A stretch of 64,000 bases of DNA, taken from Candidatus Onthocola gallistercoris. GTDB lineage: Bacteria > Bacillota > Clostridia > Lachnospirales > Lachnospiraceae. Below the pieces are notes generated by a model. It was not told where the DNA came from and did no database searches. It was given only the letters and a program-made list of their open reading frames with translations. The DNA is taken from contig DVLT01000004.1 of NCBI GenBank assembly GCA_018715345.1, positions 1 through 64,000 of the forward strand. Direction: 5' to 3'. The position numbers were made by a program, and so were the translations under genes. This document shows positions 55,467 to 61,810 of the stretch, one piece after another; the first letter of the stretch is position 1; each line of letters starts with the position of its first letter.

Positions 55467-55573
55467 ATCCATAAAGCACCGAGCCGTGCGCCAATACTAC
55501 CCAGACATTCCGGACGCTTGCGTCCAGGTCAGGCTGGGTTGTATGGGCATATGGCGAATGCCATGAACGGGGG

Positions 55574-55650
55574 CGAGCCGTGCGAGGCACCGTTCCCGCG
55601 GCGGTACGAGCCGTGCGAGGCACCGTTCCAACGGCGGGGCGAGCCGTGCA
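55574..55650 (+). repeat. 33-bp tandem repeat (2 full plus 1 partial copy)
   Basis: cgagccgtgcgaggcaccgttcccgcggcggta / cgagccgtgcgaggcaccgttccaacggcgggg / cgagccgtgca, starts at 55574, 55607, 55640. Confidence 0.9.
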
Positions 55651-55679: not shown

Positions 55680-56867
55680 TTGCAGTCTTCAAAATTATCC
55701 ATTCGTCTTTTTGGCGAATTTTCCATTAAAAGTCCATATTATGAGTTCCGTACAGCGGCTTCCAACAGTTCCCAACTTACACTTCTTATTTCTTATCTTG
55801 TTGTCAATCAGGGAATTGAAATATCCAAAGACAAACTGGCTGAAATACTCTGGCCGGACGAGAATATAAAAAACTATACCGGCTCCTTGCGAAATCTCGT
55901 TTATCGGGCACGTAAGGAACTGAAAAAACTGTTTCCCGATGAGGACCGGGAATATATCTTATTCACCCACAACAGTTATCTGTGGAATCCGAATATTTCC
56001 TGTCATGTGGATGTACTGGAATTTGAAAGGCTGAATCGGGAAGCCAAGTCGGAACCTAACGATGAAAGCAGATATAAGCTCCTATCGGATATGCATGCGC
56101 TGTATCAGGGGGAATTTCTCCCCGCATTCACTTCCATAGAATGGGTGTTGTATGAGAATATTTACTATCGCAACTTGTATATTGACTGTACCCTAAATAT
56201 GTGTTCCTTCCTATATAAAAGGAAACGTTACGATGACATCATCGCATTGTGCGATCAGTCCTGTCTGATGTATCAGGAGGAGGAACGCTTCCACCGTTAC
56301 AAGCTGATGGCTTATCTTGGTCTGGATCTGCCCTCTGCGGCATTGGATTATTATCGATCGACTGTAAATTTCTTTTCCCAGAAATTTGGTATAGATATCA
56401 ATCCCACACTGAATGATATCTATCAGGAAATTCTGTCCAGACTCCCCAGTATGCGTCTGGACATAAACAGTTTGGAAGAGGACTTAAAAGAAGAGCAGGA
56501 TTCCAATCACACATTTTATTGCAATTTTGATATATTCAGAAATTTTTACCAGTTAAATCGCCGGTCTGTCCGAAGATCCCACAGCAAACATTATCTGCTT
56601 TTACTCACTTTGGACTCTCTGGACGGTTATCCCATGGATGTGGAAACAACGAAAGAAGAAATGCAGATCTTATATCAGCTGCTTTCGACACAGCTTCGTA
56701 AAAATGACATTTTTACCCGTTCCAGTCATTCCCAGTACTCTGTCATTCTGACCGTTCCCAATGAATACGGCAGTGAAGTGGCTGAACGGCGGATCCTGCA
56801 GAAATACGACCAGGTGAAGCAACACGACAATATGGGGCTGACCGTGGAAAGGAAACTGATCGAATAG
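55680..56867 (+). CDS. SARP/BTAD-type transcriptional regulator, possible degenerate GGDEF-like C-terminus
   Basis: wHTH (LSIRLFGEFSI...ISKDKLAEILWPDENIKNYTGSLRNLVYRARKEL) plus BTAD-like TPR region; TTG start with GGAGGAGG upstream. Confidence 0.82.
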   Translation: MQSSKLSIRLFGEFSIKSPYYEFRTAASNSSQLTLLISYLVVNQGIEISKDKLAEILWPDENIKNYTGSLRNLVYRARKELKKLFPDEDREYILFTHNSYLWNPNISCHVDVLEFERLNREAKSEPNDESRYKLLSDMHALYQGEFLPAFTSIEWVLYENIYYRNLYIDCTLNMCSFLYKRKRYDDIIALCDQSCLMYQEEERFHRYKLMAYLGLDLPSAALDYYRSTVNFFSQKFGIDINPTLNDIYQEILSRLPSMRLDINSLEEDLKEEQDSNHTFYCNFDIFRNFYQLNRRSVRRSHSKHYLLLLTLDSLDGYPMDVETTKEEMQILYQLLSTQLRKNDIFTRSSHSQYSVILTVPNEYGSEVAERRILQKYDQVKQHDNMGLTVERKLIE

Positions 56868-56891
56868 TCTTTATCAAAGGAGGACTTGTCT

Positions 56892-57836
56892 ATGAACCGA
56901 TGGCTTATCATCCGCGCGCTCTGTCTGACATTACTGATAAGCCTTTTTCCTTCCGGCTGTTCTTCCGGCGGCGCTCCTGATATCCCCAATACACAAAGTA
57001 CCGCTTCTTCTCCGGAAAGTGTGCGTGACAATACGCCTCAAGTGCTTGTACCTGAGGCATCCGGGGATATCGTCTATGGATCAGGCACTGTCTCCATCGA
57101 TGCTTCCAATACAGCTGAGGGCTATGTTATGGTCCGGTATACGGGCACAAATCCAAAAGTCAAATTACTTATCGCCACTCCGGCGGATGTGACCTATACC
57201 TATCTGCTGCGTGGAGGAGATTATGAAACATTTCCTCTGACCGGCGGAGACGGAACGTACCAACTGACAATATATGAAAATATAACCGGCGACAGTTACG
57301 CTGCTGCTTTTTCCCAATCTGTCGATGTGGAAGGCTCAGATCCTTTCAAGCCTTATCTGTATCCCAACCAATACATCACATTTACAGCAGATAGTAAGGC
57401 AGTGGCTCTGGCTGCAGATCTGGCTGAAAATGCTTCCGGAGATTTGGATGTGGTGGCCTCTGTTTATGATTACGTCATCAAAAACATCTCTTATGATACG
57501 GATCTGGCTGAAAATGTATCTTATGGTTATCTGCCGGACGTGGATGTCACACTGGACTCCGGAAAGGGGATATGTTTTGACTACGCGGCATTGATGACAG
57601 CCATGCTCCGTTCGCAACGGATCCCCACACGTCTGGAAGTCGGCTATTCGGATGATCTGTATCACGCCTGGATCAGTACTTATGTGAAAGAAATCGGATG
57701 GGTGGATAATGTTATTGAATTTGACGGCAAATCCTGGTCCTTGATGGATCCCACCCTTGCGGCCAACAACTCTGCTGAAAGCGTCCGAGAATATGTTGGC
57801 AGCGGCAGTCACTATACTGTAAAGTATACATACTGA
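56892..57836 (+). CDS. Transglutaminase-like domain lipoprotein
   Basis: Lipobox FPSGC; GKGICFDYAALMTAMLRSQRIPTRL...YHAWI...LMDPT (Cys/His/Asp). Confidence 0.88.
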   Translation: MNRWLIIRALCLTLLISLFPSGCSSGGAPDIPNTQSTASSPESVRDNTPQVLVPEASGDIVYGSGTVSIDASNTAEGYVMVRYTGTNPKVKLLIATPADVTYTYLLRGGDYETFPLTGGDGTYQLTIYENITGDSYAAAFSQSVDVEGSDPFKPYLYPNQYITFTADSKAVALAADLAENASGDLDVVASVYDYVIKNISYDTDLAENVSYGYLPDVDVTLDSGKGICFDYAALMTAMLRSQRIPTRLEVGYSDDLYHAWISTYVKEIGWVDNVIEFDGKSWSLMDPTLAANNSAESVREYVGSGSHYTVKYTY

Positions 57837-57881
57837 TCCTCGTTATCCATTTGACATATTGTTACACGAAAGGAGTTTATC

Positions 57882-58934
57882 ATGAAAGAAAATGCGGCGG
57901 CACGTCCGCTTTCCAATACAGAGCTTTCTTCCTTCTGCAGACAGATGTCCATGATCCTTTCAGCCGGCATCTCTCCATTGGAAGGGCTTTCCCTTATGGA
58001 AGAAGAATCTGCCTCCCCGGAGGAAAAACAACTGCTGAAAGCCATGGAGGAGGAATATCTGCAATCTGCCAGTTTATACCGATCGTTCCAGACAGTGGGG
58101 ATCTTCCCCGATTATATGCTCCACATGATCCACATCGGAGAACAATCCGGACGTCTGGATGAGGTGATGGTTTCCCTCGCCTCCCATTATGACCGGGAAG
58201 CCGGTATTGCGGCTTCTTTGAAAAATGCGGTCATTTACCCTTTTGTCATGATCCTGATGATGATCGCTGTTATTTTCATACTGATCATCAAAGTGCTTCC
58301 CATCTTCCAACAGGTATTTGAACAACTTGGACAGGAGATGAGCGGATTTTCCAGGAGCGTGGTTGATTTCGGCATTGCCCTAAACCGCTATTCCACAGTA
58401 TGTATCGCTGTCTTTGCCGTCATTGCCGTACTTTTTGTGCTGACCATCTATACAAAACAAGGGCGAAAGATCGCAGGAGACCTGGCTGCCAAGCTGGGAA
58501 TGTTCCGAAATTTCCGTTACAAAACTGCAGCTTGCCGTTTTGCCAGCGCCATGGCGCTGACCTTAAGCAGTGGGCTGGATGTGGATCAAAGTTTTGATCT
58601 GGCCGCAGCGCTGATCGATGACCATGATTTTCAGGAAAAGATACGGGTGTGCCGTGAAAAGATCCATGAGGGAAATGCGTTTCCTAAAGCCCTGTCCCAA
58701 TCCGGTATATTCACTGGTATTTATGCCCGTATGCTGACTATTGGCTTTCACACCGGTTCCACCGAAAAAATGCTGACGGATATATCCCATCGCTATGAAG
58801 ATGAGGTGGACGCCGCCATCAGCCGGAATATTTCTATCCTGGAGCCCACCCTTGTGGCCATTTTGTCGATCATCGTGGGAATACTCCTGCTTTCTGTCAT
58901 GTTGCCTCTGATCGGCATCTTGTCAGGTTTTTAA
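57882..58934 (+). CDS. Type II secretion/type IV pilus inner membrane protein (GspF/PilC family)
   Basis: Two repeated GspF-like domains, 3 TM, FCRQMSMILSAGISPLEGL, LEPTLVAILSIIVGILLLSVMLPL. Confidence 0.92.
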   Translation: MKENAAARPLSNTELSSFCRQMSMILSAGISPLEGLSLMEEESASPEEKQLLKAMEEEYLQSASLYRSFQTVGIFPDYMLHMIHIGEQSGRLDEVMVSLASHYDREAGIAASLKNAVIYPFVMILMMIAVIFILIIKVLPIFQQVFEQLGQEMSGFSRSVVDFGIALNRYSTVCIAVFAVIAVLFVLTIYTKQGRKIAGDLAAKLGMFRNFRYKTAACRFASAMALTLSSGLDVDQSFDLAAALIDDHDFQEKIRVCREKIHEGNAFPKALSQSGIFTGIYARMLTIGFHTGSTEKMLTDISHRYEDEVDAAISRNISILEPTLVAILSIIVGILLLSVMLPLIGILSGF

Positions 58935-58950
58935 AAAGGGGGGATTCTCA

Positions 58951-59286
58951 TTGCATCGATTTATTCCCGGCAAAAGATCCCGGCTGCCAGGACATCTCTC
59001 CAGGCTAGTCATTTTTTGCGCGATACTCATAGCTGTCATTTATTTCAGCACATCTGCGCTTTCCAGACGCACAGATGAAGAACAGATCCAAACACTCCAG
59101 ACCCAGTTATGGCAAAGCATTGTCCACTGCTACTGCGTGGAGGGCTTTTATCCGGAAAGTTTAGACTATCTAAAGGAAAATTATGACATTACCTACGATG
59201 AGGACCGTTTTTTTGTGGATTATCAGCCCATGGGATCCAATATGGTCCCTGACGTGACCATCATTTTCCGCGATGGGGATTCTTAG
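58951..59286 (+). CDS. Small single-TM protein, pilin-like
   Basis: TTG start with GGGGGG upstream; N-terminal TM, small ectodomain; operon. Confidence 0.7.
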   Translation: MHRFIPGKRSRLPGHLSRLVIFCAILIAVIYFSTSALSRRTDEEQIQTLQTQLWQSIVHCYCVEGFYPESLDYLKENYDITYDEDRFFVDYQPMGSNMVPDVTIIFRDGDS

Positions 59287-59311
59287 ATCGGGCCTTTAAA
59301 AGGAGGAATAC

Positions 59312-59815
59312 ATGAAATTCAGAACATCAAGAGAGCATCTGTGTGAATTGCTTTTTATCTTTGCTCTCTTTTTTGTCTTTGCTGTCTGTGCCGTCACTGT
59401 GCTTCTGGTATCCGCAAGCAGTTATGAAAGTACGGTCCGGCGTACGGGTGAAAACTATGATATACGTACCACGTTGACTTATCTGTCCCAAAAAATCCGG
59501 CAAAATGACGAATATGGCGCCATCCATGCGGGTACATTTGAGGATTATCCTGCGTTGATCCTGCATCAAAAAACAGAAAACAGCAGTTATACCACCTATA
59601 TTTATCTCATGGACGGGCAATTGAAGGAGCTGGTGGCGCTGGATGGCAGCAATGCAGCTCCCGAAAGCGGTCAGACGATCCTTGAAAACACTTCCGTATC
59701 CATTGAGGAAACAGACAGTGGACTGATCCGCTTCACTCTCACTGACAGCAACGGCATATCTTATGAGTTGACTGTTTCTCCAAAAAGTTCAGAAGGGAGT
59801 GATCCGGATGTCTGA
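59312..59815 (+). CDS. Single-TM protein (DUF4860-like)
   Basis: AAGGAGG upstream; N-terminal TM; operon. Confidence 0.72.
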   Translation: MKFRTSREHLCELLFIFALFFVFAVCAVTVLLVSASSYESTVRRTGENYDIRTTLTYLSQKIRQNDEYGAIHAGTFEDYPALILHQKTENSSYTTYIYLMDGQLKELVALDGSNAAPESGQTILENTSVSIEETDSGLIRFTLTDSNGISYELTVSPKSSEGSDPDV

Positions 59816-60260
59816 AAAAAACCGGCCTCACAGAAATCTTTTTCTGGCCGAACTGATGATCGCCATTTTGTTTTTTGCCCTCTGCAGCGTCATCTGTCTC
59901 CAGCTTTTCAGTCATTCACGCATGGATAGTCGGCAAATGCAGCTGGAAAACGCAGCGGCCAGCCGTGCAGAAAGCGCTGCCGGCATCTTTCAAAGCCAAG
60001 GGATCCAGGGTCTTGCAGATGCCCTTGATCATTCCTCGGACACGGATCCGGAGCAAATGGTCGTGTACTATGACAGTCTGTGGAACACGACCGGGGCTGA
60101 TACAGGAATATATGCCATGTCCATCACTTTGAGTACAGAAGATCATATGGAATCGGCCCATATTTCCGTCTATGATATGGCTGAGCATACATCTTTATAC
60201 GAATTAAACGCGGCACATCATATACCCTATACATTGGGGGACAGGGAGGTGTACGAATGA
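59808..60260 (+). CDS. Pseudopilin-like single-TM protein
   Basis: NLFLAELMIAILFFALCSVICLQLF resembles a type IV prepilin helix with Glu at +5; start at internal Met (MSEKNRPH), approximate. Confidence 0.68.
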   Translation: MSEKNRPHRNLFLAELMIAILFFALCSVICLQLFSHSRMDSRQMQLENAAASRAESAAGIFQSQGIQGLADALDHSSDTDPEQMVVYYDSLWNTTGADTGIYAMSITLSTEDHMESAHISVYDMAEHTSLYELNAAHHIPYTLGDREVYE

Positions 60261-60736
60261 ACACAAAAAAACCTGCCGTCAATCATGTGGGAACATCCTT
60301 GATACTGGTCGTTCTGATCATCCTGGCTCTGGTCACTTTTGCTGTGCTATCCCTTGTCCAGACAAATCGGGACAGACTGTACAGCGATCAGATCCGTTCT
60401 GTCAGCACGGCCTATCATGAAGCTTGCCATACTGCCGAAAATATATTGGCAGATATCGATACGGTACTGCTGCAAAACTGGAGTGAAAATACAGAGGAAT
60501 GGTACGATGATGTGGCGTCTGTGCTCGCCGAAAACGAAGATCTGTCTTTGGATTTTTCATCGGACCCGCCTTTAGTCCGCTATCAAGTGGCTTTTGGAGA
60601 TGAGCGTGCATTAGATGTGGTTTTGGAGATCACACCCCCTTCCGATACGGATGATCCATTTTACCGTATCATACGCTGGGAAGAAATATCGACCCATTCA
60701 TGGCAAGGGGACAATTCATTAAATTTAATGCAATAG
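60257..60736 (+). CDS. Single-TM pilin-like protein
   Basis: GTSLILVVLIILALVTFAVLSLVQTNRDRLYSDQ; overlaps the previous ORF (ATGA). Confidence 0.7.
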   Translation: MNTKKPAVNHVGTSLILVVLIILALVTFAVLSLVQTNRDRLYSDQIRSVSTAYHEACHTAENILADIDTVLLQNWSENTEEWYDDVASVLAENEDLSLDFSSDPPLVRYQVAFGDERALDVVLEITPPSDTDDPFYRIIRWEEISTHSWQGDNSLNLMQ

Positions 60737-60751
60737 GAGGTTGGACCATTT

Positions 60752-61810
60752 ATGAATATCATTGAATTATTGACGAAAGCAGCGCAGGATAAAGCCTCCG
60801 ACGTATTCCTCATCGCCGGGCTTCCGCTTACCTGTCGTATCGGCGGCATTCTCCGGCGGGAGAATGAGACAAAACTTTTACCGGATGATACCCGTGATCT
60901 GATCCGCCAGATCTATAAACTGGCCGGAGGACGATCCATGGATACCTTGGAACAATATGGGGATGATGATTTTTCCTTTGCCATCAACGGGGTATCCCGT
61001 TTTCGTGTCAACACCTATCGTCAGAGGGGGTCTTTGGCTGCTGTTATCCGTATCATCCAATTTCAGCTTCCAGACCCGGCTACTTTGGGTATTCCAGACA
61101 GTATCATCGAGCTGGGGCAGCTTAACAAGGGGCTTGTCCTTGTCACCGGACCGGCCGGCAGCGGCAAATCCACAACTTTAGCCTGTATCGTCAACGCCAT
61201 CAACTCTTCATGCAAAAAACATATCATCACCTTGGAAGATCCGTTGGAATACCTGCACCCCCATAAACAGTCTATTGTCAGCCAGAGGGAAATACACATC
61301 GATACCGGCAGTTATGCCAACGCTTTACGGGCTTCTCTGCGGCAAAGTCCGGATGTGATCCTTTTGGGCGAAATGCGGGATCAGGAGACCACTACAGTGG
61401 CCATGACTGCGGCGGAAACCGGTCATCTGATCTTTTCCACCTTACACACCATCGGCGCTGCCAACACCATTGACCGTATCATTGATGTTTTTCCGCCTAA
61501 TCAGCAGCGGCAGATCACCGTTCAGCTTTCCATGACGCTCCAGGCTGTCATATCCCAGCAACTCGTTCCGGATACAACAGGCAATCTGATCCCTGCATTT
61601 GAGATCATGACAGTCACACCGGCGATCCGCAATATGATCCGGGAAAATAAAATCCCCCAGATCAGCGGTATCTTATATGGCGCTTCCAGTCGGGATATGA
61701 TCTCAATGGACAGCAGTCTTTTTAATCTCTATCGTTCCGGACGTATATCCAAGGAGACGGCTCTGACATATGCCTCCAATCCGGATATGCTGAGCAAAAA
61801 GCTGTTATAG
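60752..61810 (+). CDS. PilT-like twitching motility ATPase
   Basis: Walker A GPAGSGKST, ITLEDPLEY, RQSPDVILLGEMRD, GHLIFSTLHT, PAIRNMIRENKIPQI. Confidence 0.94.
   Translation: MNIIELLTKAAQDKASDVFLIAGLPLTCRIGGILRRENETKLLPDDTRDLIRQIYKLAGGRSMDTLEQYGDDDFSFAINGVSRFRVNTYRQRGSLAAVIRIIQFQLPDPATLGIPDSIIELGQLNKGLVLVTGPAGSGKSTTLACIVNAINSSCKKHIITLEDPLEYLHPHKQSIVSQREIHIDTGSYANALRASLRQSPDVILLGEMRDQETTTVAMTAAETGHLIFSTLHTIGAANTIDRIIDVFPPNQQRQITVQLSMTLQAVISQQLVPDTTGNLIPAFEIMTVTPAIRNMIRENKIPQISGILYGASSRDMISMDSSLFNLYRSGRISKETALTYASNPDMLSKKLL

Follow-up and report, generated by a model that had tools for sequence, protein, structure and literature searches.

The window analyzed here is a stretch of 64,000 nucleotides from Candidatus Onthocola gallistercoris (Lachnospiraceae), located on contig C32 (DVLT01000004.1) of a draft assembly of 2.39 Mb that is 94.9% complete. 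Positions 55680-61810 of its forward strand hold a tightly spaced operon coding for a regulator, a transglutaminase-like lipoprotein, a PilC/GspF platform protein, four one-helix proteins, and a PilT-family ATPase. This organization had been proposed from the letters alone (hereafter, the sequence-only reading) as a minimal pilus-like operon, and all of its genes were confirmed to be present, with Pfam and NCBIfam models identifying the regulator, the lipoprotein, the platform protein, one of the four small proteins, and the ATPase. The four small genes between PilC and PilT are referred to as g4, g5, g6, and g7, of which the window copies of g4, g6, and g7 matched no model individually. In agreement with the same reading, no gene for PilB/GspE, a prepilin peptidase or a secretin was found within the operon, and neither was a conventional major pilin, as none of the four small proteins of the window matched a pilin model. 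PilM, PilN, and PilO were likewise absent from the operon and from the surroundings of related operons in the gene maps, without a genome-wide search for them.

Features of the operon and its upstream flank, with positions in the window (pLDDT, predicted local distance difference test score)
Feature	Position	Strand	Basis
Giant surface protein, 4203 aa	42705..55316	-	17 SpaA and 5 SdrD_B domain matches; C-terminal VQTGD-type sorting signal
Direct repeat GRNNCGAGCCGTGC, 14 nt	55476-55649 (spacing-33 repeats at 55570..55649)		Four copies, two in 33-nt units; gap between giant gene and regulator
BTAD/SARP-type regulator	55680..56867	+	BTAD domain 3.7e-14
Transglut_core secreted lipoprotein, transglutaminase-like	56886..57836	+	Transglut_core 1.8e-19; lipobox FPSGC
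PilC/GspF platform, 350 aa	57882..58934	+	T2SSF 1.9e-43, two copies
g4, 111 aa, one helix and small two-stranded domain	58951..59286	+	AlphaFold2 pLDDT 90
g5, DUF4860, minor-pilin-like	59312..59815	+	DUF4860 2.2e-29; acidic residue at pilin position 5, no Gly-1
g6, pilin homologue, NLFLAELMIAILFF	59808..60260	+	Invariant Glu+5; Asn replaces Gly-1
g7, GspK/PilX-position pilin-like protein	60257..60736	+	G-TSLILVV; predicted 67-residue helix and four-stranded sheet (pLDDT 92)
PilT-family ATPase	60752..61810	+	NCBIfam pilT_fam 410.7 bits; motifs intact

The score of the ATPase on the NCBIfam pilT_fam model lies well above the cut-off of 319.1, and its scores on the PilB, GspE (132.6 bits versus a cut-off of 630), and ComGA models (137.6 versus 300) fall far below theirs. 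The nearest solved structures are those of PilT (E ~1e-97), with PilB matched only at ~1e-25, and the Walker A, GEMRD, LHT, and AIRNxIRE motifs are all intact. Since its nearest solved relatives are PilT and all four motifs are kept, the ATPase is, judged by its sequence, a true PilT. For the platform, the best-matching model was that of GspF, of which it lacks the first ~50 residues. Its length is ComGB-like, and this, together with the absence of PilM/N/O from the operon and a number and order of genes (ATPase, platform, small pilin-like set) reminiscent of comG, could suggest a Com-like pseudopilus for DNA uptake in which PilT stands in place of ComGA. However, the platform fails the ComGB model (112 bits versus 240) just as the ATPase fails that of ComGA, no ComC-type peptidase accompanies them, and the neighboring genes code for surface proteins, sortases, and transglutaminase rather than com functions. 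We therefore regard a role in DNA uptake as improbable.

A scan based on PilT yielded 80 loci, about 60 of which share the order PilC-g4-g5(DUF4860)-g6-g7-PilT (hereafter, the module), mostly with the transglutaminase-like gene immediately upstream, and the synteny that the sequence-only reading suggested looking for was thereby recovered. The same core order was seen in 55 re-fetched regions (60 were retrieved and five left out because automatic orientation failed). Since the gene order is identical in about 60 loci, the arrangement is far above chance. Modules were present in Lachnospiraceae, Oscillospiraceae, Eubacteriaceae, Clostridiaceae-like metagenome-assembled genomes, and Eggerthellaceae (Actinomycetota). 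DUF4860, the marker of the module, was detected in 34 of the 100 Lachnospiraceae genera sampled and in 41 of the 151 Oscillibacter-family genomes, the latter a sample requested at a completeness of at least 90% and delivered with no completeness values. In a quickly built tree, in which some terminal branches are long, the PilTs of the modules formed a single clade nested among clostridial PilTs (Shimodaira-Hasegawa-like approximate likelihood ratio test, 97). Two PilTs within this clade come from loci with no module, one in a type IV pilus-like cluster with PilD (L060, 1949-9337) and one by itself (L067, 8776-10056), possibly representing re-use of the module motor. A PilB hidden upstream of PilC was also considered and rejected, as the large adjoining genes in other loci code for Rho, glutamyl/glutaminyl-tRNA synthetase, an M3-type peptidase, and MrcB-like or FHA proteins.

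The small proteins carry pilin-like helices of which only some keep Glu+5 or a preceding Gly, as had been remarked from the window, where g6 keeps Glu+5 and g7 keeps the Gly. Outlying modules (L059, L071, L072, L074, L078, and L080) have a g6 with a textbook class III signal (e.g., G/FTLIEMI), a g5 reading G-R-A-L-I-E, and a g7 with Gly ahead of its helix. The N_methyl model was matched by 6 of 32 g6 members (best 4.9e-8) and by one of 32 g5 members, and the alignment of the g6 profile to type IV pilins of solved structure begins at mature residue 1 (best E 7.6e-4); the sequence profiles of g4, g5, and g7 gave nothing meaningful against the PDB. Among derived members, the intramembrane Glu+5 of g6 is present in 60 out of 60 and the acidic residue of g5 in most, with Gly-1 of g6 mostly swapped for Ser, Asn, Pro, or Arg. 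In g4 the invariant residues are C60, G65, Y67, and P68. For both g4 and g7, AlphaFold2 predicted a long helix leading into a small beta domain (mean pLDDT 90 and 92, respectively). The N-terminal features suggest that g5, g6, and g7 resemble a minor pseudopilin set, and the homologies of PilC, PilT, and the pilin-like proteins place the module in the type IV filament superfamily.

We next consider the genomic background of the module. A genome-wide profile search detected no PilB in the window genome, and no conventional type IV pilus locus was found there. Its sole other strong T2SSE gene codes for a CpaF-type ATPase on contig C33, within a Tad locus (L007, 3633-13334) that also includes an FHA-domain protein, TadE-like genes, a Flp-like gene, TadB/TadC-like genes, and two different A24 peptidases. 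Because CpaF is encoded there, PilT is the only ATPase of the operon, as had been claimed, but not of the genome. The search for pilB and pilD suggested at that time was accordingly negative for the first and positive for A24 peptidases, although these belong to the Tad locus. This Tad system, the wide distribution of the module and the dispensability of a prepilin peptidase described below go beyond the sequence-only reading.

By hand count, full-length PilB occurs in 50 of 100 Lachnospiraceae genera (15 of 34 with the module and 35 of 66 without it). It never lies close to the module in this family, being on another contig or, in a finished genome, more than 1.6 Mb away, and its presence is uncorrelated with that of the module. 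Among the module genomes reached through the loci, 8 of 40 have one T2SSE and one T2SSF gene, both of them those of the module, and no Peptidase_A24. Within the Oscillibacter family, A24 is missing from 19 of the 41 genomes with the module; a single T2SSE gene is found in 17 of them and a second, PilT-like T2SSE gene in the other two, while all 22 with A24 have at least two T2SSE genes. Overall, the module PilT is the only ATPase of the PilB/PilT/CpaF type in 24 genomes, with neither PilB nor Peptidase_A24 found. Two of them, Oscillibacter sp. 1-3 and Pseudoflavonifractor sp. 60, are isolates, and in the PilT tree the 24 fall into no fewer than three distinct regions. Incomplete assemblies cannot have produced this pattern by chance, and both the autonomy of the module and its independence from the peptidase are well supported. 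The earlier suggestion of a non-canonical pilin-like device powered by PilT is thus upheld, as the window genome has no PilB and the module is the sole superfamily machine in 24 other genomes.

These genomes also bear on whether the module is an accessory of Tad or of a canonical type IV pilus, contributing an additional retraction motor and minor pilins. On the one hand, a further ATPase of the superfamily was found in every Lachnospiraceae genome sampled, A24 was missing from just one of them, which is 60% complete, and in one genome (G052) CpaF is encoded only ~8 kb from the module. On the other hand, the module encodes its own PilC, its occurrence does not follow that of PilB, and the 24 genomes with no other such machine contradict this as its general function, which makes an accessory role a rather poor explanation.

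A true short pilus or pseudopilus, with a bidirectional PilT and an unrecognised peptidase maturing the four pilin-like proteins, deserves more weight, though we still deem it unlikely. The invariance of Glu+5 in g6 and of Gly-1 in g7 agrees with it, and precedents exist for its motor: CpaF of Tad is described as a single bifunctional motor acting in both directions (PMC12019362), and PilT promotes extension of the mannose-sensitive haemagglutinin (MSHA) pilus (PMC9815625). Nevertheless, in MSHA PilT works with MshE and not by itself, and no A24 homologue was found in the 24 module genomes. Furthermore, Gly-1 of g6 is gone from most derived members; it was kept in 0 of 16 peptidase-less genomes examined versus 8 of 31 with the peptidase.

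The gene neighborhood was analyzed by setting 55 module regions, none longer than 20 kb, against 60 controls drawn from the same genomes. Transglutaminase-like proteins were encoded in 50 of 55 module regions, SARP homologues in 20 (p 4e-8), and sortases in 7 (p 0.005), all three versus 0 of 60 controls; since the profiles were built from module neighbors, these counts express an association of these particular families. Secreted proteins of at least 900 aa were found in 11 of 55 module regions and in 2 of 60 controls (p 0.007). The tie to the giant surface protein and the regulator drawn in the sequence-only reading therefore holds as a genomic association only. The retained transglutaminase association, along with the conservation of the six-gene order, the motor motifs, and Glu+5 across families and two phyla, makes it very improbable that the operon is what remains of a type IV pilus operon in decay, even if the loss of PilB, the peptidase, and the cleavage sites would be in line with decay.

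In the window, the giant gene is divergent from the operon and constitutes an associated neighbor outside the module core. Among the giant neighbors elsewhere are LPXTG proteins that, like the one in the window, carry SpaA or Cna_B domains, and others with VWA or List_Bact repeats. Several Oscillospiraceae share the order SARP, sortase, transglutaminase, PilC, g4-g7, and PilT, and operons of this form are those of L158, L159, L161, L172, and L173. Two of these (L172 and L173) have a divergent giant LPQTG protein of 2454 and 2114 aa, respectively; the transglutaminase-like protein there has a plain signal peptide and no lipobox. Sortase-like genes are found immediately upstream of two early-branching modules with canonical pilin signals (L072 360-1163 and L078 1132-3517), the second of which is preceded by an adhesin-like LPKTG gene as well. 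A GGDEF protein and an extracytoplasmic function sigma factor lie beside two other modules (L118 and L124). The window regulator probably starts at a TTG codon at 55680, preceded by GGAGGAGG, and ends at 56867; its C terminus resembles a degenerate GGDEF domain, with no significance (E 0.19). Direct repeats are often bound by SARPs, and the GRNNCGAGCCGTGC repeats, whose 22-nt core has no further occurrence in the window, are possibly an operator. Rfam had no match in the operon region, and the promoter scan yielded no more sites than shuffled sequences.

Taken together, we favor, by a modest degree, the interpretation of the operon as an autonomous, reduced derivative of type IV filaments, driven by PilT, that works not as a pilus but as a short piston anchored in the membrane and acting at the cell wall. 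A PilT hexamer beneath the PilC platform would be the sole motor. The four single-helix proteins would remain in the membrane, in derived lineages with the leader not removed, and the conserved intramembrane acidic residues of g5 and g6 would hold them together and to PilC. Hydrolysis of ATP by PilT would turn and displace PilC, and this movement would make the small pilin-like complex go back and forth within the cell-wall zone like a short piston, with no long fiber grown. With PilT alone and leaders probably retained, a long polymer seems unlikely. In known systems, a PilB-type motor drives pilins outward by rotating the platform, and PilT turns it in the opposite direction (PMC6916266). 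The conserved partner genes point to surface proteins as substrates, and the targets may be secreted or wall-bound, with the transglutaminase-like protein as the likeliest candidate, joined by the giant sortase-anchored neighbor in genomes that have one. Taken alone, this role in surface proteins is a tentative proposal. The stronger view that the module represents a distinct class of machine is slightly more speculative still; here, PilT would be the sole motor, uncut pilin-like subunits would be permanent membrane proteins, and a reciprocating piston in the envelope would help surface proteins, giant or bound to the wall, to enter or cross the Gram-positive wall.

Several observations weigh against the piston interpretation. 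The Tad system of the window's own genome provides both a peptidase and CpaF, and cross-talk with the module is therefore conceivable in this strain. The Gly before the g7 helix is invariant even where no peptidase was detected, for which the model gives no explanation. Foldseek searches with the models of g4 and g7 gave no significant pilin match, g4 alone having weak ones (template modelling score ~0.45), so that the pilin homology of these two proteins, argued by topology, is only likely. Giant surface proteins accompany only one fifth of the modules. Finally, the absence calls depend on draft assemblies and, for the peptidase, on a profile (Peptidase_A24) that a non-homologous enzyme would escape.

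According to surveys of the superfamily (PMC6668835), no family can do without the extension ATPase, and it is the retraction motor that can be spared, whereas the module is a conserved machine that keeps the supposedly dispensable motor, with PilB and the peptidase absent. In Imam et al. 2011, a tad operon but no pil operon is recorded for Ruminococcus gnavus and Eubacterium ventriosum; on this account modules have possibly been overlooked, and surveys keyed on PilB-type ATPases may have passed over them. Searches of the open-access literature, with subscription papers and preprints outside their reach, found no description of a PilT-only or peptidase-free system and no mention of DUF4860. 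Thus, neither a conventional type IV pilus locus elsewhere in this genome nor an earlier account in that literature opposes the sequence-only reading.

The textbook definition of the type IV pilus includes processing of pilins by an A24 peptidase. With the monoderm type IVa pilus of Streptococcus sanguinis and Clostridium perfringens, the module shares the PilC platform, a PilT that has all motifs and branches next to the PilTs of clostridial type IV pili, and small pilin-like proteins, but it has no extension ATPase, operon-encoded PilM/N/O or conventional major pilin, and the peptidase is not needed. The S. sanguinis pilus requires ten proteins, among them the extension ATPase, PilM/N/O, the major pilin, and the peptidase (PMC6916266). 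The Com pilus (ComGA-ComGG, ComC) is likewise a compact set of ATPase, platform, and small pilins in monoderms, from which the module differs by having PilT instead of ComGA, no ComC peptidase, and, in derived lineages, apparently non-cleavable pilins. The Tad (type IVc) pilus, with its bifunctional CpaF, also uses one motor per machine; however, CpaF and TadB/TadC belong to other subfamilies, the TadV peptidase and Flp pilin are part of Tad, and the window genome encodes both systems. Resemblance to the type II secretion pseudopilus (GspG-K) lies in the GspF-like platform and, as suggested by their N-terminal features, in the minor pseudopilin character of g5-g7, but the module has no GspE, GspO or, at the level of the operon, secretin, and its hosts are monoderm. 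The module therefore fails at least one defining feature of each of these four systems and is a superfamily member in an arrangement not found described in the open-access literature searched. As it is the sole such machine in some species and no known pilin-cutting enzyme was found there, it probably works unlike any described pilus. It allows useful work by PilT alone, the function of uncut pilins, and a role for the surface proteins of gut clostridia to be tested directly. Compared with these known systems, the module stands as a compact, PilT-only machine related to the type IV pilus; it is present in many clostridia and, in some species, is the only one of its kind in the cell.

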